Assembly: GCF_001040845.1 (NCBI RefSeq)
Contig: NZ_CP011941.1
Location: 110,977 to 174,976, forward strand
Source: Synechococcus sp. WH 8020
GTDB taxonomy: Bacteria; Cyanobacteriota; Cyanobacteriia; PCC-6307; Cyanobiaceae
Length of the DNA: 64,000 nucleotides
Direction: 5' to 3'
Numbering within the stretch: position 1 is the first letter of the stretch; each line of letters starts with the position of its first letter. A program made the translations under genes and the position numbers. Below, in pieces: positions 474 to 23,096 of this stretch. The notes beneath the pieces are model-generated. The model was not told the DNA's origin and searched no databases. It worked only from the letters and a program-made list of their open reading frames with translations.

Positions 474-1809
474 GCCCAAAGCCAACGGCGAGAAAATTGG
501 TTTACCGGCGCGTCGTTTGGCTTTGGAGGTGCTGGAGGCCGTTGCTGCGGGTGCCTATGCCGATGTGGCCCTAGAGCGAGCCCTTCGTCAAAATCCCCTG
601 TCTCCTGCGGATCGCGGCCTGGCCACCGAGCTTGCCTATGGATGCATTCGCTGGCGTCAATGGCTCGATGGTTGGTTGGATCGTTTCGGCAAAGTTCCAG
701 CTCATCAACAACCGCCCCGGTTGCGTTGGCTCTTGCATCTCGGCCTTTACCAAGTGCTACGCATGCAGCGCATCCCTGCTGCTGCAGCCGTGGACACCAC
801 GGTGGAGCTTGCTAAGCGACAACGGCTCTCCAAGCTGTCGCCCGTGGTGAATGGTGTGCTTCGTTCGGCCCTTCGCGCCAAGGAGGCCGGCGAGACCCTG
901 CCCCTGTCTGACCAATCTGCCGAACGTCTGGCGTTGTGCCATTCCCTGCCTGTTTGGTTTGCTGAAAGCTTGTTGAGCTGGTCTGCTCCTGACCAGGCCG
1001 AGCGGGTGGCTGTTGCCTGTAATCAAGTTCCCCCCTTGGATCTGCGGGTGAATCGCTTGTGCAGCACACCTGACGAGGTGGCGGCTGAATTAGCCGAGGC
1101 GGGGGTGCCGACGCAACCGATCGATGCTTGTCCAGATGGGTTGCAGGTGCTGTCGCCTGCGGGGGATTTGCGACGTTGGCCTGGTTTTGAAGAGGGGCAT
1201 TGGAGCGTGCAGGATCGATCGGCCCAGGGTGTTGCTCCGCTGTTAGCGCCTCAGCCTGGAGATCGGATTCTTGATGCTTGCGCCGCTCCTGGTGGGAAGG
1301 CAACCCATCTGGCGGAGCTGGTCAGGGATGAGGGTCAGATCTGGGCTGTGGATCGCTCGGCGGGTCGCTTAAAGCGAGTGGCTGCCAACGCTGCACGCTT
1401 GGGATGTGGTTCGATCCATGCGCTGGCAGCGGATGCAACCAACCTCCTTGAGCTAAAGCCCGAATGGCGTGGTTTCTTTCAACGCATCCTCCTGGATGCT
1501 CCATGCTCGGGACTGGGGACCTTGTCCCGTCATCCCGATGCCCGTTGGCGCGTCACGCCTGCCACGGTGGAGGAGTTGTTGCCGCTGCAAGCGCAATTGC
1601 TGGCGGCGATGTTGCCGCTGCTCGCTCCTGGTGGGCGATTGGTGTATGCAACGTGCACGATTCATCCCGCCGAGAATCTGGGACAAGTCAACAAGTTCCT
1701 TCAGGATCATCCTGATTTTCAGTTGGAGTCCGAGCAGCAGCGCTGGCCAGATCCCGAGGGGGGTGATGGGTTTTACACCGCAGTGATCACTGCACCGGCA
1801 AAGGCCTAA
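454..1809 (+). CDS. rsmB: 16S rRNA m5C methyltransferase RsmB (Sun/Fmu family)
   Basis: This 451-residue protein has the two-part layout of RsmB, which methylates C967 of 16S rRNA. Residues 20-150 are an NusB-like RNA-binding helical domain. The C-terminal half is the SAM-dependent m5C methyltransferase fold, with DACAAPGGKATHLAEL (SAM motif I), DAPCSGLGTLSRHPD (motif IV, PCS Cys) and YATCTIHPAEN (motif VI, catalytic TC Cys). The start is uncertain: TTG at 454 or GTG at 466, both inside the 3' end of the preceding gene. The two are probably co-transcribed. The 3' end overlaps the convergent penicillin-binding protein gene by 23 bases, so no terminator separates them. Confidence 0.93.
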   Translation: MPLPVSEPKANGEKIGLPARRLALEVLEAVAAGAYADVALERALRQNPLSPADRGLATELAYGCIRWRQWLDGWLDRFGKVPAHQQPPRLRWLLHLGLYQVLRMQRIPAAAAVDTTVELAKRQRLSKLSPVVNGVLRSALRAKEAGETLPLSDQSAERLALCHSLPVWFAESLLSWSAPDQAERVAVACNQVPPLDLRVNRLCSTPDEVAAELAEAGVPTQPIDACPDGLQVLSPAGDLRRWPGFEEGHWSVQDRSAQGVAPLLAPQPGDRILDACAAPGGKATHLAELVRDEGQIWAVDRSAGRLKRVAANAARLGCGSIHALAADATNLLELKPEWRGFFQRILLDAPCSGLGTLSRHPDARWRVTPATVEELLPLQAQLLAAMLPLLAPGGRLVYATCTIHPAENLGQVNKFLQDHPDFQLESEQQRWPDPEGGDGFYTAVITAPAKA

Positions 1810-8228: not shown

Positions 8229-8468
8229 TTGCAAGCCGTAGCAGCTGCTGTTTGGCGCTCGGGGTGTTCCTGGGCGAGCGAAGACTGCGAGGTTTGGCTA
8301 GTAAAGATGGAGTCGTTGCTGGGCAGGGGCATGCCCAACGGTGAGCCGGCTCTGTTGAAAAAACGGCAACAATTACGCCGTGAACAGGCAGAGCAATTGT
8401 TGAATGCTTTGCGTCATCAGGGGTGGAGACCAACAGAACCTGTGAGGGGGTCTGCTCGTGAGCCATAA
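8229..8468 (+). CDS. Small hypothetical protein
   Basis: A 79-residue ORF; an internal ATG at 8307 gives a 53-residue version beginning MESLLGRGMPNGEP. The second half is a basic amphipathic helix (LLKKRQQLRREQAEQLLNAL) ending in a short Trp/Pro tail. No family is recognised. The stop codon abuts the A-run of a hairpin at 8467-8495 that terminates the opposite strand. It is supported mainly by its protein-like second half; the first 26 residues are doubtful. Confidence 0.4.
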   Translation: MQAVAAAVWRSGCSWASEDCEVWLVKMESLLGRGMPNGEPALLKKRQQLRREQAEQLLNALRHQGWRPTEPVRGSAREP

Positions 8469-8495
8469 AAATGAGAGGGCTCTCAACCCCTCTCA
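8467..8495 (-). terminator. Intrinsic terminator for a minus-strand transcript
   Basis: A perfect 8-base stem TGAGAGGG/CCCTCTCA (8472-8479 with 8488-8495) with an 8-base loop. On the minus strand it is followed directly by TTTTT (8471-8467). The plus strand has no T-run after the stem, so the direction is minus. No minus-strand protein gene lies upstream of it, which points to a transcript from the 8496-8805 gap. Confidence 0.6.
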
Positions 8496-8805
8496 GCGCG
8501 TCTTGCTTTCGCTTAGTCACTTTGGCTTTTGAGTTGGCGGAGGTATGACGAAATGGTGAGCAAGTCGCTACTAAATCAGTCTTTGGCAAGAGGGCGCTTC
8601 CCTGCATTGGCTTGTTCTTCGGGTGGTGCGCTGATCCATTGCTTCTTTGTTCAGGCCAGAAGCCTTAGCTCGACTAGCCTTTTAGCTCCACAGGTTCTCT
8701 GCGTTGCTGGCCCGAATCGCAATCGTCCGATCTGCGCTCCAAGGCTTGCGATAGCGCGGAACTCAGTGAGCAAGTCCAACCGTTCTTTCTAGGCCCCTGC
8801 TCGGT
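8496..8805 (-). other. Gene-poor interval; possible minus-strand non-coding RNA upstream of glyQ
   Basis: This interval has no ORF I can support on either strand. It lies between the small ORF ending at 8468 and glyQ, and a minus-strand terminator sits at its left edge. A minus-strand RNA of up to about 300 bases is therefore plausible. I compared it by eye with 6S RNA, tmRNA and RNase P RNA signatures and recognised none. The glyQ promoter must also lie here. Confidence 0.3.
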
Positions 8806-9921: not shown

Positions 9922-11889
9922 ATGAACGTTGCTCTTTGGCTGGTTCTCTTGATGCTTGCCACTCAGCTTGGTGCCGCCTTTCCCCAGGGGATTCAGCATT
10001 GGTGTGTGGTGTTGGTTGGGCTTGCTGCGGCTGTTCTGTTGATCTGCCGCCGGTTTCCACTTCCAGGCTGGAGGCTGTTTCTTCTTGTTCTCGTGCTCTG
10101 TGGCTTGTTGCTGCGCTCGTCTACGGGGCAAGAGGCCATGCCCTCATCACTGGATCCTCTTCAGCTTGTGTCAAGCGGCTCCGATCAGAAGCCGCTGGTG
10201 ATTGAGGGCCGTGCCCTCGCTGATGCACCTGTGCGTAGGGGGCGCTGCCAAGCCCTGCTGCAGGTGAACCATCTTGGTGGCCAGAGTCGCGATGGTCGCA
10301 CCGAACTGGTTGTAGACCCCTGCCTTCAGATGTTGCGCAAAGGCTCATTGGTCAGGGCTCAGGGTCAGCTCGTGACTCCTGCAGTTGCAACCCATCCCCT
10401 ACTTCCTAATCCAGCTGAACGCTTGGCGGATCAAGGGTGTTGGAGCCAATTCCGCACCAAGCAGGTGGAGCTGATCCAGCAAGAACACACTCCTCTGGCT
10501 GATGGGCGTCGTCTGATCGCTGCTCGATTTCAAGACTTAGCAGGGGAGCACTCAGGTGGACTACTGGCCGCATTGGTGCTTGGGGGTGGGCAAGTAGAGC
10601 TCAGCTCAGAGCTGCGAGAGGCCTTTCGAGTCGCGGGTTTATCCCATGCATTAGCAGCATCTGGATTTCACCTTTCAGTGCTGTTAGGAGCCACGCTTGC
10701 CCTGACGCGCAGGGTTGACATGCTCTTGCGATTGGCGGCTGGAGCTGGTGCCATGGCTGTTTTCCTTGCCCTGGCGGGCGGGCAGCCATCGGTTGTTCGC
10801 GCTGTGTTGATGGGAGCTACCGCCCTCTTGATTCGAGAACGGGGCTCTCGAACTCAACCCTTGGGTGTGTTGCTCACCACATTGGTGTTGATGCTGTTGG
10901 TACACCCCTCCTGGGCACGTTCCATTGGTTTTCAGCTCAGTGCCGCTGCGACAGCTGGCTTAGTGCTCAGTTCGCAGCCATTAGAGCAGTGGCTCCTGCA
11001 GCTCTGTCCTCAGCGTTGGATACGAGTTTTGGCCCCTGCCCTGTCGGTGCCAGTGGCGGCGCTGCTCTGGACCCTTCCCCTGCAAATCCTGCATTTCGGA
11101 TCTGTGCCTTTGTATGCGCTGGTTAGCAACCTGATCGCTGCACCTTTGCTGGCACCGCTCACCCTTTCGGCGATGATCCTGGCGCTGCTGACCTTAATGC
11201 TGCCAACGGCGATCGCTGCACTGGTGATGCCAGTGTTGGTTTCGCCGGTGCAGCAGTTGGCGTCGTTGTTGATCGCTTTGGTGCATTGGATCAGTTCCTG
11301 GCCCCATGCCCAGTTGCTCACGGGACATCCGCAGCCTTGGGTGGTGCTGGTCGTCGTGCTGGCGCTTCTCCCTTGGGCCTTGCCGTCCCTGCATCATTGG
11401 CGCTGCAGGGCTTTCCCTCTTTTACTCTTGGCCACGCTGGTGCAAGCCAGCGTTCAGCTCAGCGATGAGCTTGTCATGGTGCGGCAGTGGGGGAGACACT
11501 GGCTACTGGCCCGTCATCAGGGGCGCGCCGCGCTGATCAGCAGTCACGGAGATTTGCTCAGTTGCCAGTTGGCTCAGCAACTTGGGCATGGTTATGGACA
11601 CCCACGCTTGGACTGGGTCGTGGTGATGGATCCAGTGGCGAGCGATCACAGCCGTTGTTGGACTGAACTAGCGCACACCGTTCGGGCTGAGCATCAGGGA
11701 GAGCCTCCTTTGCTGCCAGGTCAACGCCTGCAAAGCCCTGGTTTGATGCTTCGCCCACTGGGAGGCCAAGATCGTCGTTGGTATTTGCGCGTGAATGGTC
11801 AATCCCATCGACTCAGGCAATCAAGCGGTGGAGCCTTAAGATGGGACGACGCTCGTGAAGCGTTTGGAGAGGTGGCAGAGCCCGGTTGA
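9922..11889 (+). CDS. comEC: ComEC/Rec2-family DNA uptake channel protein
   Basis: A 655-residue polytopic membrane protein. Residues 80-180 match the OB-like N-terminal domain, and HALAASGFHLSVLLGA near 243-258 is the ComEC signature. It is followed by 8-10 membrane spans. In transformable bacteria ComEC carries single-stranded DNA across the inner membrane. The C-terminal 140 residues occupy the place of the metallo-beta-lactamase-like domain, but I see no HxHxDH motif, so that domain seems degenerate. TTG 9919 is an alternative start. The last eight codons lie inside the tRNA-Ser gene: the TGA at 11887-11889 is in its D-arm region. Confidence 0.85.
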   Translation: MNVALWLVLLMLATQLGAAFPQGIQHWCVVLVGLAAAVLLICRRFPLPGWRLFLLVLVLCGLLLRSSTGQEAMPSSLDPLQLVSSGSDQKPLVIEGRALADAPVRRGRCQALLQVNHLGGQSRDGRTELVVDPCLQMLRKGSLVRAQGQLVTPAVATHPLLPNPAERLADQGCWSQFRTKQVELIQQEHTPLADGRRLIAARFQDLAGEHSGGLLAALVLGGGQVELSSELREAFRVAGLSHALAASGFHLSVLLGATLALTRRVDMLLRLAAGAGAMAVFLALAGGQPSVVRAVLMGATALLIRERGSRTQPLGVLLTTLVLMLLVHPSWARSIGFQLSAAATAGLVLSSQPLEQWLLQLCPQRWIRVLAPALSVPVAALLWTLPLQILHFGSVPLYALVSNLIAAPLLAPLTLSAMILALLTLMLPTAIAALVMPVLVSPVQQLASLLIALVHWISSWPHAQLLTGHPQPWVVLVVVLALLPWALPSLHHWRCRAFPLLLLATLVQASVQLSDELVMVRQWGRHWLLARHQGRAALISSHGDLLSCQLAQQLGHGYGHPRLDWVVVMDPVASDHSRCWTELAHTVRAEHQGEPPLLPGQRLQSPGLMLRPLGGQDRRWYLRVNGQSHRLRQSSGGALRWDDAREAFGEVAEPG

Positions 11890-11952
11890 ATGCGCACGAC
11901 TCGAAATCGTGTAGGGGTAACACCCTCGTGGGTTCGAATCCCACCCTCTCCG
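11866..11952 (+). tRNA. tRNA-Ser(CGA)
   Basis: An 87-base type II tRNA. The acceptor arm is GGAGAGG (11866-11872) with CCTCTCC (11945-11951), discriminator G at 11952. The anticodon stem CACGA/TCGTG (11895-11899, 11907-11911) closes the loop CTCGAAA with anticodon CGA at 11902-11904. The T-arm GGTTCGAATCC is intact, and the long variable arm is typical of serine tRNA. No CCA is encoded. Its 5' 24 bases overlap the comEC coding sequence. A decayed copy of its 3' end lies at 12848. Confidence 0.97.
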
Positions 11953-11956
11953 TTTT
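11937..11956 (+). repeat. tRNA-Ser 3' end, candidate attachment-site copy 1
   Basis: The sequence AATCCCACCCTCTCCGTTTT spans the T-arm end, acceptor strand and four bases beyond the tRNA. It recurs at 12848-12867 with 18 of 20 bases identical. Direct copies of a tRNA 3' end are the usual footprint of tyrosine-recombinase integration. Confidence 0.5.
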
Positions 11957-12068
11957 AGATGAGTCCGAATAAGCGCTTTTTCAACACCATTCTTGTGATG
12001 CTCTGAATGATGGGCGGTTATCTCATCTGAAATGTGCCTTTAGGGAGCATTTTCAGTCCATTGGGTCC

Positions 12069-12266
12069 TTGCAGTTCACTCTTTCCCCTGTCTGGCGAGA
12101 ACGCAAGCAGGGAAACCAGCAGCTCGAAGAAAGACTGCGGTGGCAAGAAAAAGGCGAGGATTGCCAATGGCGTCATTCAGATGGCAGCTACTGGTCTCTC
12201 TGCTATTTCCTAGGCAGCAAGCGCTCTTGGCTTCTGTGCTGTGAAGCAAGAGAACAAGGTGTGTAA
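12069..12266 (+). CDS. Small Trp/Cys-rich hypothetical protein (uncertain)
   Basis: A 65-residue ORF starting at TTG 12069. It has a charged middle (RERKQGNQQLEERLRWQEKG) and six Trp plus three Cys in a short length. No family is recognised. It lies 116 bases past tRNA-Ser in the accessory stretch. A second ORF (12241-12342) overlaps its end in another frame. It could be an open frame by chance. Confidence 0.3.
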   Translation: MQFTLSPVWRERKQGNQQLEERLRWQEKGEDCQWRHSDGSYWSLCYFLGSKRSWLLCCEAREQGV

Positions 12267-12342
12267 CGGTTGCGTTGAAGAGGTCATTGCTGTCGGTCAG
12301 ACCAATGCGCAGGCAGTCCGCTTCCGTAACGGCGGGAACTGA
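12241..12342 (+). CDS. 33-residue CxxC micro-protein candidate
   Basis: GTG at 12241 opens a 33-codon frame to the TGA at 12340-12342. The peptide contains CNGCVEEVIAVGQTNAQAV and ends FRNGGN. The CxxC and regular alternation look protein-like, and the ORF overlaps the end of the upstream 65-residue ORF by 26 bases. It is too short to assess by eye; conservation in related strains would decide. Confidence 0.3.
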   Translation: MKQENKVCNGCVEEVIAVGQTNAQAVRFRNGGN

Positions 12343-12413
12343 ATAGGGAGTTCCGCAAAACATCACTACATAACCTCTGTGACTCACGTCTCAGAGATCT
12401 TTCTTTTGGTTTT

Positions 12414-12469
12414 GATCGCATAGAGAATCGGTGTCTGTCCCTACAAAAGAGTTCATCTGGATACATAAC
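12414..12469 (+). repeat. Tandem RNA-like unit, conserved 56-base block, copy 1
   Basis: This block matches 12546-12601 at 48 of 56 positions without gaps. The core CTACAAAAGAGTTCATC is identical in both. It is followed 38 bases later by an intrinsic terminator. The spacing between copies is 132 bases. Confidence 0.75.
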
Positions 12470-12506
12470 ACTGGCTCCGTTCCTCACACGGGACAGCACA
12501 GCGAGG

Positions 12507-12537
12507 AGGAAGGTTTTGAGAAACCTTCCTTTTTTTT
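12507..12537 (+). terminator. Strong intrinsic terminator of unit 1
   Basis: The stem AGGAAGGTTT/AAACCTTCCT (12507-12516 with 12521-12530), perfect over 10 pairs, has a TGAG tetraloop and is followed by T8 (12530-12537). This is one of the clearest Rho-independent terminators in the window. It ends a plus-strand transcript although no plus-strand gene precedes it closely. Confidence 0.85.
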
Positions 12538-12545
12538 GGTCTGCT

Positions 12546-12601
12546 GACCTCATAGGGATTTGGTGCTTGTCCCTACAAAAGAGTTCATCCGGATACATAA
12601 A
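12546..12601 (+). repeat. Tandem RNA-like unit, conserved 56-base block, copy 2
   Basis: The second copy of the block at 12414-12469, 48 of 56 identical, starting 8 bases after the first terminator's T-run. The identical core begins at 12573. Confidence 0.75.
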
Positions 12602-12648
12602 AATGCTCATAACCCAAGGAGGTGGTCCTTGGGGATGCGTCGTCATGG

Positions 12649-12678
12649 GGGAGGTTGTGGAAGGCCTTCCTTTTTTTT
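12649..12678 (+). terminator. Intrinsic terminator of unit 2
   Basis: GGGAGG (12649-12654) pairs with CCTTCC (12665-12670) with one G-U, or a shorter GGAA/TTCC hairpin forms from the palindrome GGAAGGCCTTCC (12659-12670). T8 follows at 12671-12678. The end CCTTCC-T8 is identical to that of unit 1. Confidence 0.6.
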
Positions 12679-12847: not shown

Positions 12848-12867
12848 AATTCCACCCTCTTCGTTTT
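12848..12867 (+). repeat. Decayed copy of the tRNA-Ser 3' end (candidate attachment-site copy 2)
   Basis: AATTCCACCCTCTTCGTTTT matches tRNA-Ser positions 11937-11956 at 18 of 20 bases; both differences are C to T. No tRNA structure surrounds it. The 891 bases between the two copies hold the tandem RNA-like units. The recombinase and AlpA remnants lie beyond this copy, so it may be an internal scar of one of several insertions. Confidence 0.5.
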
Positions 12868-22968: not shown

Positions 22969-23007
22969 AAAAGAGGTTCATTGCTAACATCGTATTGATT
23001 CGGATCC

Positions 23008-23096
23008 ATGCGGTCCAGACGCCCAAACCTGGTCAGAACCGGAAGGGAGCAGCCACACGGGATGCTCTGGGCAGGCGTGGACTCCGGGTCACCAAC
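23008..23096 (+). ncRNA. ffs: Signal recognition particle RNA (4.5S, small bacterial type)
   Basis: The conserved domain IV loop is present: CCTGGTCAG, then ACCGGAAGGGAGCAGCC at 23037-23053, the Ffh-binding site. Flanking arms pair: GTCCA with TGGAC and ACGCC with GGCGT (23013-23023 with 23073-23082). Ends are approximate. It lies between panB and ftsZ, both on the minus strand, and its protein partner Ffh is encoded at 59150 in this window. Confidence 0.92.

Follow-up and report, generated by a model that had tools for sequence, protein, structure and literature searches.

The small RNAs Yfr1 and Yfr10 share the motif ACUCCUCACAC and through it base-pair with the 5′ motif of Yfr2 (PMC2518516, PMC6778093), and the pairing of Yfr10 with Yfr2 has been established in Prochlorococcus MED4 (PMC6778093, PMC2518516). 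Yfr103, described as a non-coding RNA of unknown function and as the most abundant one in marine picocyanobacteria, is present in CC9605 as seven paralogs of 290–328 nt that form the most abundant transcript there (PMC5069720). The window analysed here, a 64-kb stretch inside a 2,661,066-base single-contig genome, contains two tandem units (A and B), each of which is very likely a small-RNA gene on the sequence evidence set out below. Together they are probably genes for trans-acting regulatory sRNAs with their own terminators, belonging to a family that lives at tRNA and tmRNA integration hot spots.

Unit A (type A, ~110 nt, 12428–12537) and unit B (type B, ~119 nt, 12560–12678) are sRNA-like and lie head-to-tail, both on the plus strand, each ending at a T8 run (12530–12537 and 12671–12678). 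Their first ~56–61 bases are 84–86% identical, and comparison of the window sequence with itself gave a direct repeat (12413–12473 and 12545–12605, spacing 132) with identity at 51/61 positions, reproducing the 56-base block with 48/56 identities at a 132-base offset reported in the preliminary description. In a search of the second repeat copy against the whole 64-kb window, E was 3e-14, and 0.11 for the next-best match. The conserved 5′ block, defined by alignment and without coding signal, spans 12430–12468 of the plus strand in unit A (GGTG..TCCCTACAAAAGAGTTC....GGATACATAA, its ACAAA part predicted to be mostly unpaired) and 12562–12600 of the plus strand in unit B, where it matches CCCTACAAAAGAGTTCATC exactly. 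The middles of the units are unlike, with GTTCC-TCACAC-GGGAC in unit A and CCCAAGGAGGTGGTCCTTGGGG followed by ATGCGTCG in unit B. Ensemble folding gives a middle hairpin at 12479–12494 (plus strand) in unit A, containing UCCUCACAC (12481–12489), and folds of unit B give one at 12613–12634 (plus strand; CCCAAGG AGGTGGT CCTTGGGG), separated from the terminator by a AUGCGUCG spacer (12635–12642, plus strand), a 3′ module motif shared in the alignment and with other RNAs. Rho-independent terminators were found by the terminator scan at 12507–12537 and 12647–12678, both on the plus strand, that of unit A having a perfect 10-bp stem (AGGAAGGTTT/AAACCTTCCT); the hairpin and T8 closing each unit, the perfect first stem and the differing middle segments are all as first described. 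A diverged third copy (unit C) lies at 1,692,597–1,692,714 of the same genome. The unit B hairpin also holds AAGGAGGUGGUCC (12616–12628), 13 contiguous bases complementary, with one G–U, to the 3′ tail of 16S rRNA (−24.2 kcal/mol); this segment sits folded within the hairpin and is found in G000_C and G027c3_D as well, and not in every type B unit.

By DNA search (blastn), 11 of the 31 genus genomes contain relatives. A covariance model built from 20 units (R1; 108.9 bits for unit A and 114.4 for unit B) had strong matches in three genera, and a second model built from 38 aligned units, unit A and 37 relatives included (R2; 95.7 bits for unit A and 108.8 for unit B), matched 30 of the 400 family genomes at E ≤1e-4, all within three marine Synechococcus genera, and no further genus among 25 of the order had a match. 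The matching genomes include some that we take, from their chromosome sizes, to be CC9311, CC9902 and RCC307, as well as UW140, UW105, AG-683-C23, BS30m-G31 and an SP2 MAG. No genus taken for Prochlorococcus, itself an inferred assignment, was matched. The covariance search proposed in the preliminary description for marine cyanobacteria and cyanophages was thus productive for the former, in three Synechococcus genera, and empty for the latter: cyanophages had no match and viral contigs gave 11 motif matches at chance level, of at most 19 bits, on which a cyanophage origin was rejected. Rfam at a relaxed threshold gave chance-level matches only (e.g. Listeria sbrA at half its cut-off), and no Rfam family covers these putative RNAs. 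Nearly all rows of the 38-unit alignment end in a terminator, and tandem or clustered units recur in G011, G027 (two loci), G001 and G006. Sequence comparison places the two units in a fast-evolving multi-copy family of marine Synechococcus whose members are dispersed and often tandem. In an earlier study, Gierga et al. (2012, ISME J) are said to have predicted marine Synechococcus sRNAs from WH7803 and four other strains and to have reported island-borne ones, and the present family may be among those predictions.

In structure predictions, strong pairing in all members is confined to the terminator hairpin, the ACAAAA of the 5′ block being largely unpaired. Most members are also predicted to form a middle hairpin, whose pairing is kept through changes (GUCCC/GGGGAU, GUCAC/GUGAC, GCCGC/GGCGGC) and whose covariation support is marginal. 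Support is likewise marginal for a competing long-range helix of 5′ GGTGCYYGTCCC with 3′ GGGGATGCGTC, the form that unit A is predicted to adopt, which would leave its middle segment free. Folding of the UCCUCACAC region of unit A places UCACAC in the loop and UCC within the stem, and an alternative pairing of the 5′ end with GGGACAGCAC would free the motif.

The units sit inside a tRNA-flanked insertion, as had been proposed, with tRNA-Ser(CGA), the probable integration target (11865–11953, plus strand, from the tRNA search), on one side and, as an att-like right flank on the other, a partial duplicate of its 3′ end (12848–12867, plus strand, 18/20 or 90% in the repeat comparison). G021 and G006 likewise have att-like remnants, ~190 nt beyond their final unit. 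Genes for tRNA and tmRNA are classical integration sites, and across genomes the neighbours of the units include the 3′ ends of tRNA-Ser(CGA), tRNA-Phe(GAA) and tmRNA. A tRNA-Phe lies 17–175 bases from units in six genomes and ~115 bases from a weak relative in G008, the unit in the RCC307-type genome starts ~55 bases after the end of the tmRNA, and sister-type units in a 2,510,659-base genome, which matches CC9605 in size, also follow tRNA-Ser(CGA). A small gene of unknown family with an in-frame TAG (12034–12342, plus strand) lies upstream of unit A in the window; relatives of this gene, intact ones included, precede sRNA units in several other genomes, being the same gene in G024 and G027 and, at lower similarity, in G227, G008 and G028. 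An element of ~200–250 nt upstream of many units (L068 ~1476–1730, L071, L065, L014, L079, L103) is 68–87% identical across genomes and has one open frame without a Pfam match. The ORF preceding unit G001_c was rejected as an integrase, since it had no Pfam, PHROG or NCBIfam match. Elsewhere in the window, a DUF1651 gene at 8307–8441 has no unit and is accompanied by a terminator-like hairpin on the opposite strand (8466–8510), and a bacterial small SRP RNA (RF00169, 57 bits) lies at 22997–23093.

The preliminary description held that no plus-strand ORF explains the units. ORFs starting from GTG do traverse both of them on that strand (12431–12547 and another starting at 12560), and the statement nonetheless stands because the substitutions show no coding constraint. 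Over six frames the synonymous fraction was not above column shuffles, either for the conserved block of all members or for full-length type A units, and the single nominal excess, in frame +1 of five type D rows (5/200 shuffles), was one of 24 tests. Small peptide genes with a GTG start and a VPTKEF..RIHKT... frame, a reading to which the plus frame open in all eight type A units lends itself, are therefore highly improbable given a synonymous fraction at the shuffled expectation (0.22 vs 0.21 for type A, 0.18 vs 0.17 for all members), the replacement of GTG by GTA in several members and a frame that is not maintained past the hairpin between types. The minus-strand MYPDELFCRD frame, codon bias in which had been named as evidence against an RNA, shows no constraint across members relative to column shuffles, and the non-coding reading survives; protein-coding on either strand was rejected by the synonymous-fraction tests.

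Two further readings take the units as non-coding without making them sRNA genes of their own. A DUF1651 or DUF3104 gene or remnant immediately precedes many of the relatives, and in G006, G027, G021, G001, G304 and G326 the block either overlaps the stop codon of such a gene or remnant or starts 0–4 nt beyond it, which fits a 3′-UTR origin there. The units would then be 3′-UTR or terminator cassettes of upstream small-protein mRNAs (DUF1651, DUF3104 and others), acting in cis on mRNA stability or releasing 3′-UTR-derived sRNAs through RNase E, and it is in keeping with this that no promoter of their own was recognised: the sigma-70 promoter consensus had no match upstream of the units, and no conserved −10 was seen by eye upstream of the block across loci. 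However, in the window, in G024 and at the G258_a/G117_a loci the unit is set apart from the gene before it by a separate terminator-like hairpin with a T-run, unit B begins ~23 nt past the unit A terminator, and only four of 30 DUF1651 loci examined have units. A single mRNA is also made less likely by the hairpin before unit A and by the terminator that separates the units, and we consider cassettes of this kind unlikely. Their position at tRNA-Ser, tRNA-Phe and tmRNA 3′ ends with an att-like repeat, their high turnover and modular hybrids such as G001_c, in which a type A loop is joined to a non-A 3′ end, could instead reflect a non-functional repeat, that is, a mobile or att-associated DNA cassette (a recombination hot spot, or MITE-like) whose terminators merely insulate island ends. 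Against such a repeat, conserved terminal inverted repeats or target duplications were not seen around units, conservation is patchy, motif-like and oriented relative to the terminator, and members in the RCC307- and CC9902-type genomes keep the same element order despite strong divergence; we find it decidedly improbable.

We regard sRNAs delivered with genomic islands as the best reading. The units have the intrinsic terminator and the non-coding sequence expected of intergenic Rho-independent sRNAs, and each would yield a separate ~110-nt RNA in which the recognition elements could be an A-rich, single-stranded stretch near the 5′ end (ACAAAAGAGUUC) and the bases that separate the hairpin from the terminator, targets being bound by base pairing. 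Action in trans by base pairing is, on balance, mildly favoured. With less assurance, unit A might present UCCUCACAC in its hairpin, pair with the Yfr2 RNAs of the host and so act in competition with Yfr1, the way Yfr10 does in Prochlorococcus, and unit B, with AUGCGUCG, might be directed at other targets or at a shared RNA-binding factor.

The longest stretch of bases kept invariant across seven type A units coincides exactly with TCCTCACAC (UCCUCACAC), 9 nt long and located in the hairpin, and the eighth type A unit is without it. As a sequence, this run is the core of the Yfr1/Yfr10 motif (PMC2518516, PMC6778093). The statement in the preliminary description that the units were not recognised as Yfr1 is accurate as regards the exact 11-mer ACUCCUCACAC, since unit A has GUUCCUCACAC (9/11), several other type A units have AUUCCUCACAC (10/11) and unit B has no counterpart, and it falls short in that unit A carries the 9-nt Yfr1 core, the longest run kept invariant across its subfamily. 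The present genome has eight RF01701 matches, which carry GTGAGGA (one of them GTGTGAGGA) and GTGGAAAC and therefore correspond to the Yfr2 family. Watson–Crick complementarity of the type A motif to these copies extends over 9 bp for one and 7 or more for the others. Pairing of unit A with Yfr2 is plausible because the invariant type A run equals the Yfr1/Yfr10 core and is complementary to the host Yfr2 5′ motif, and we put such binding forward tentatively, as somewhat less probable than its absence. Genome-wide, UCCUCACAC occurs 15 times in 2 Mb, at the chance rate and not enriched, and full-length duplex energies of the units with Yfr2 were uninformative. Members of the genus with strong multi-unit matches have five to nine Yfr2 copies (three in the fragmented G027), compared with two or three in most unit-less members, an association that shared ancestry may explain. 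Between genomes of one genus, Yfr2 (Cyano-1) copy number ranges from 1–3 up to 9. In G027 (L080), a Yfr2 gene (685–749, plus strand) and a weak unit (788–905, minus strand) converge within 40 nt, recalling the Yfr10–Yfr2 adjacency of Prochlorococcus. A family at attachment sites offers a handle on whether islands bring RNAs that rewire host regulation through Yfr2.

Most non-A units have a hairpin, then AUGCGUCG, then the terminator. The earlier proposal of a duplicated small RNA family with a conserved 5′ part agrees with units that are multi-copy and non-coding and keep the 5′ block, but this block is not the sole conserved part because the hairpin–AUGCGUCG–terminator module is more widely shared. 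In the CC9605-type genome, TGCGTCG with T6 at 18–48 bases occurs at ten places, about eight of them terminator-like, and the reversed control gave none; in the other eight genomes the same search separated the motif less distinctly from the control. Among the ten places are units whose 5′ ends differ, as well as an element of ~300 nt with exactly seven full-length copies and two fragments, and the module is thus used by several RNAs. The seven-copy RNA fits Yfr103 in copy number and length, on which, rather than on the published sequence, this assignment is based. A two-unit element at 829 kb of the CC9605-type genome was rejected as Yfr103, having only two full copies. The module is present in units B and C only of the present genome, and an HMM of six paralogs of the seven-copy RNA had no significant match in 2 Mb of that genome including the window, unit C scoring weakly through its 3′ end (E 0.25). 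A module common to a small, variable island-site family and to putative Yfr103 offers a handle on its role. More speculatively, and in our view with little likelihood, these could be an island-borne sRNA class that plugs into the host core RNA network, alternate units being Yfr2 sponges (type A) or carriers of the AUGCGUCG 3′ module, which Yfr103 would share and which would be recognised by a hitherto unknown RNA-binding protein that takes the place of Hfq in picocyanobacteria.

Set against the described systems, the non-A units share their 3′ end (hairpin, AAUGCGUC and a G-rich terminator with a T-run) with Yfr103, taken as the seven-copy RNA, and are likewise multi-copy; this 3′ arrangement is found in unit B and its non-A relatives. 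However, the units measure ~110 nt against 290–328 nt and have no similarity in the 5′ 200 nt, and identity with Yfr103 was rejected by length and 5′ end. Yfr2 (Cyano-1, RF01701) resembles the units in being small, multi-copy and present at high copy number in the same strains, and is a possible pairing partner, but the units lack a sequence match to RF01701 as well as GUGAGGAG and the GGAGUGGAAAC loop. The Cyano-1 covariance model had no match in the window, nor near units at a relaxed threshold, and identity with Yfr2 was rejected for want of an RF01701 match. Unlike in Yfr10 and Yfr1, the type A motif is not the exact 11-mer and lies partly in the stem, unit B and most members are without it, and the units of the window are not adjacent to a Yfr2 gene; to our knowledge, there is no similarity outside the motif. 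Type A units resemble Yfr10, which holds the motif in a loop, in having UCCUCACAC, 9 nt of ACUCCUCACAC, within a predicted hairpin, and the partner of Yfr10, Yfr2, is multi-copy in the present genome.
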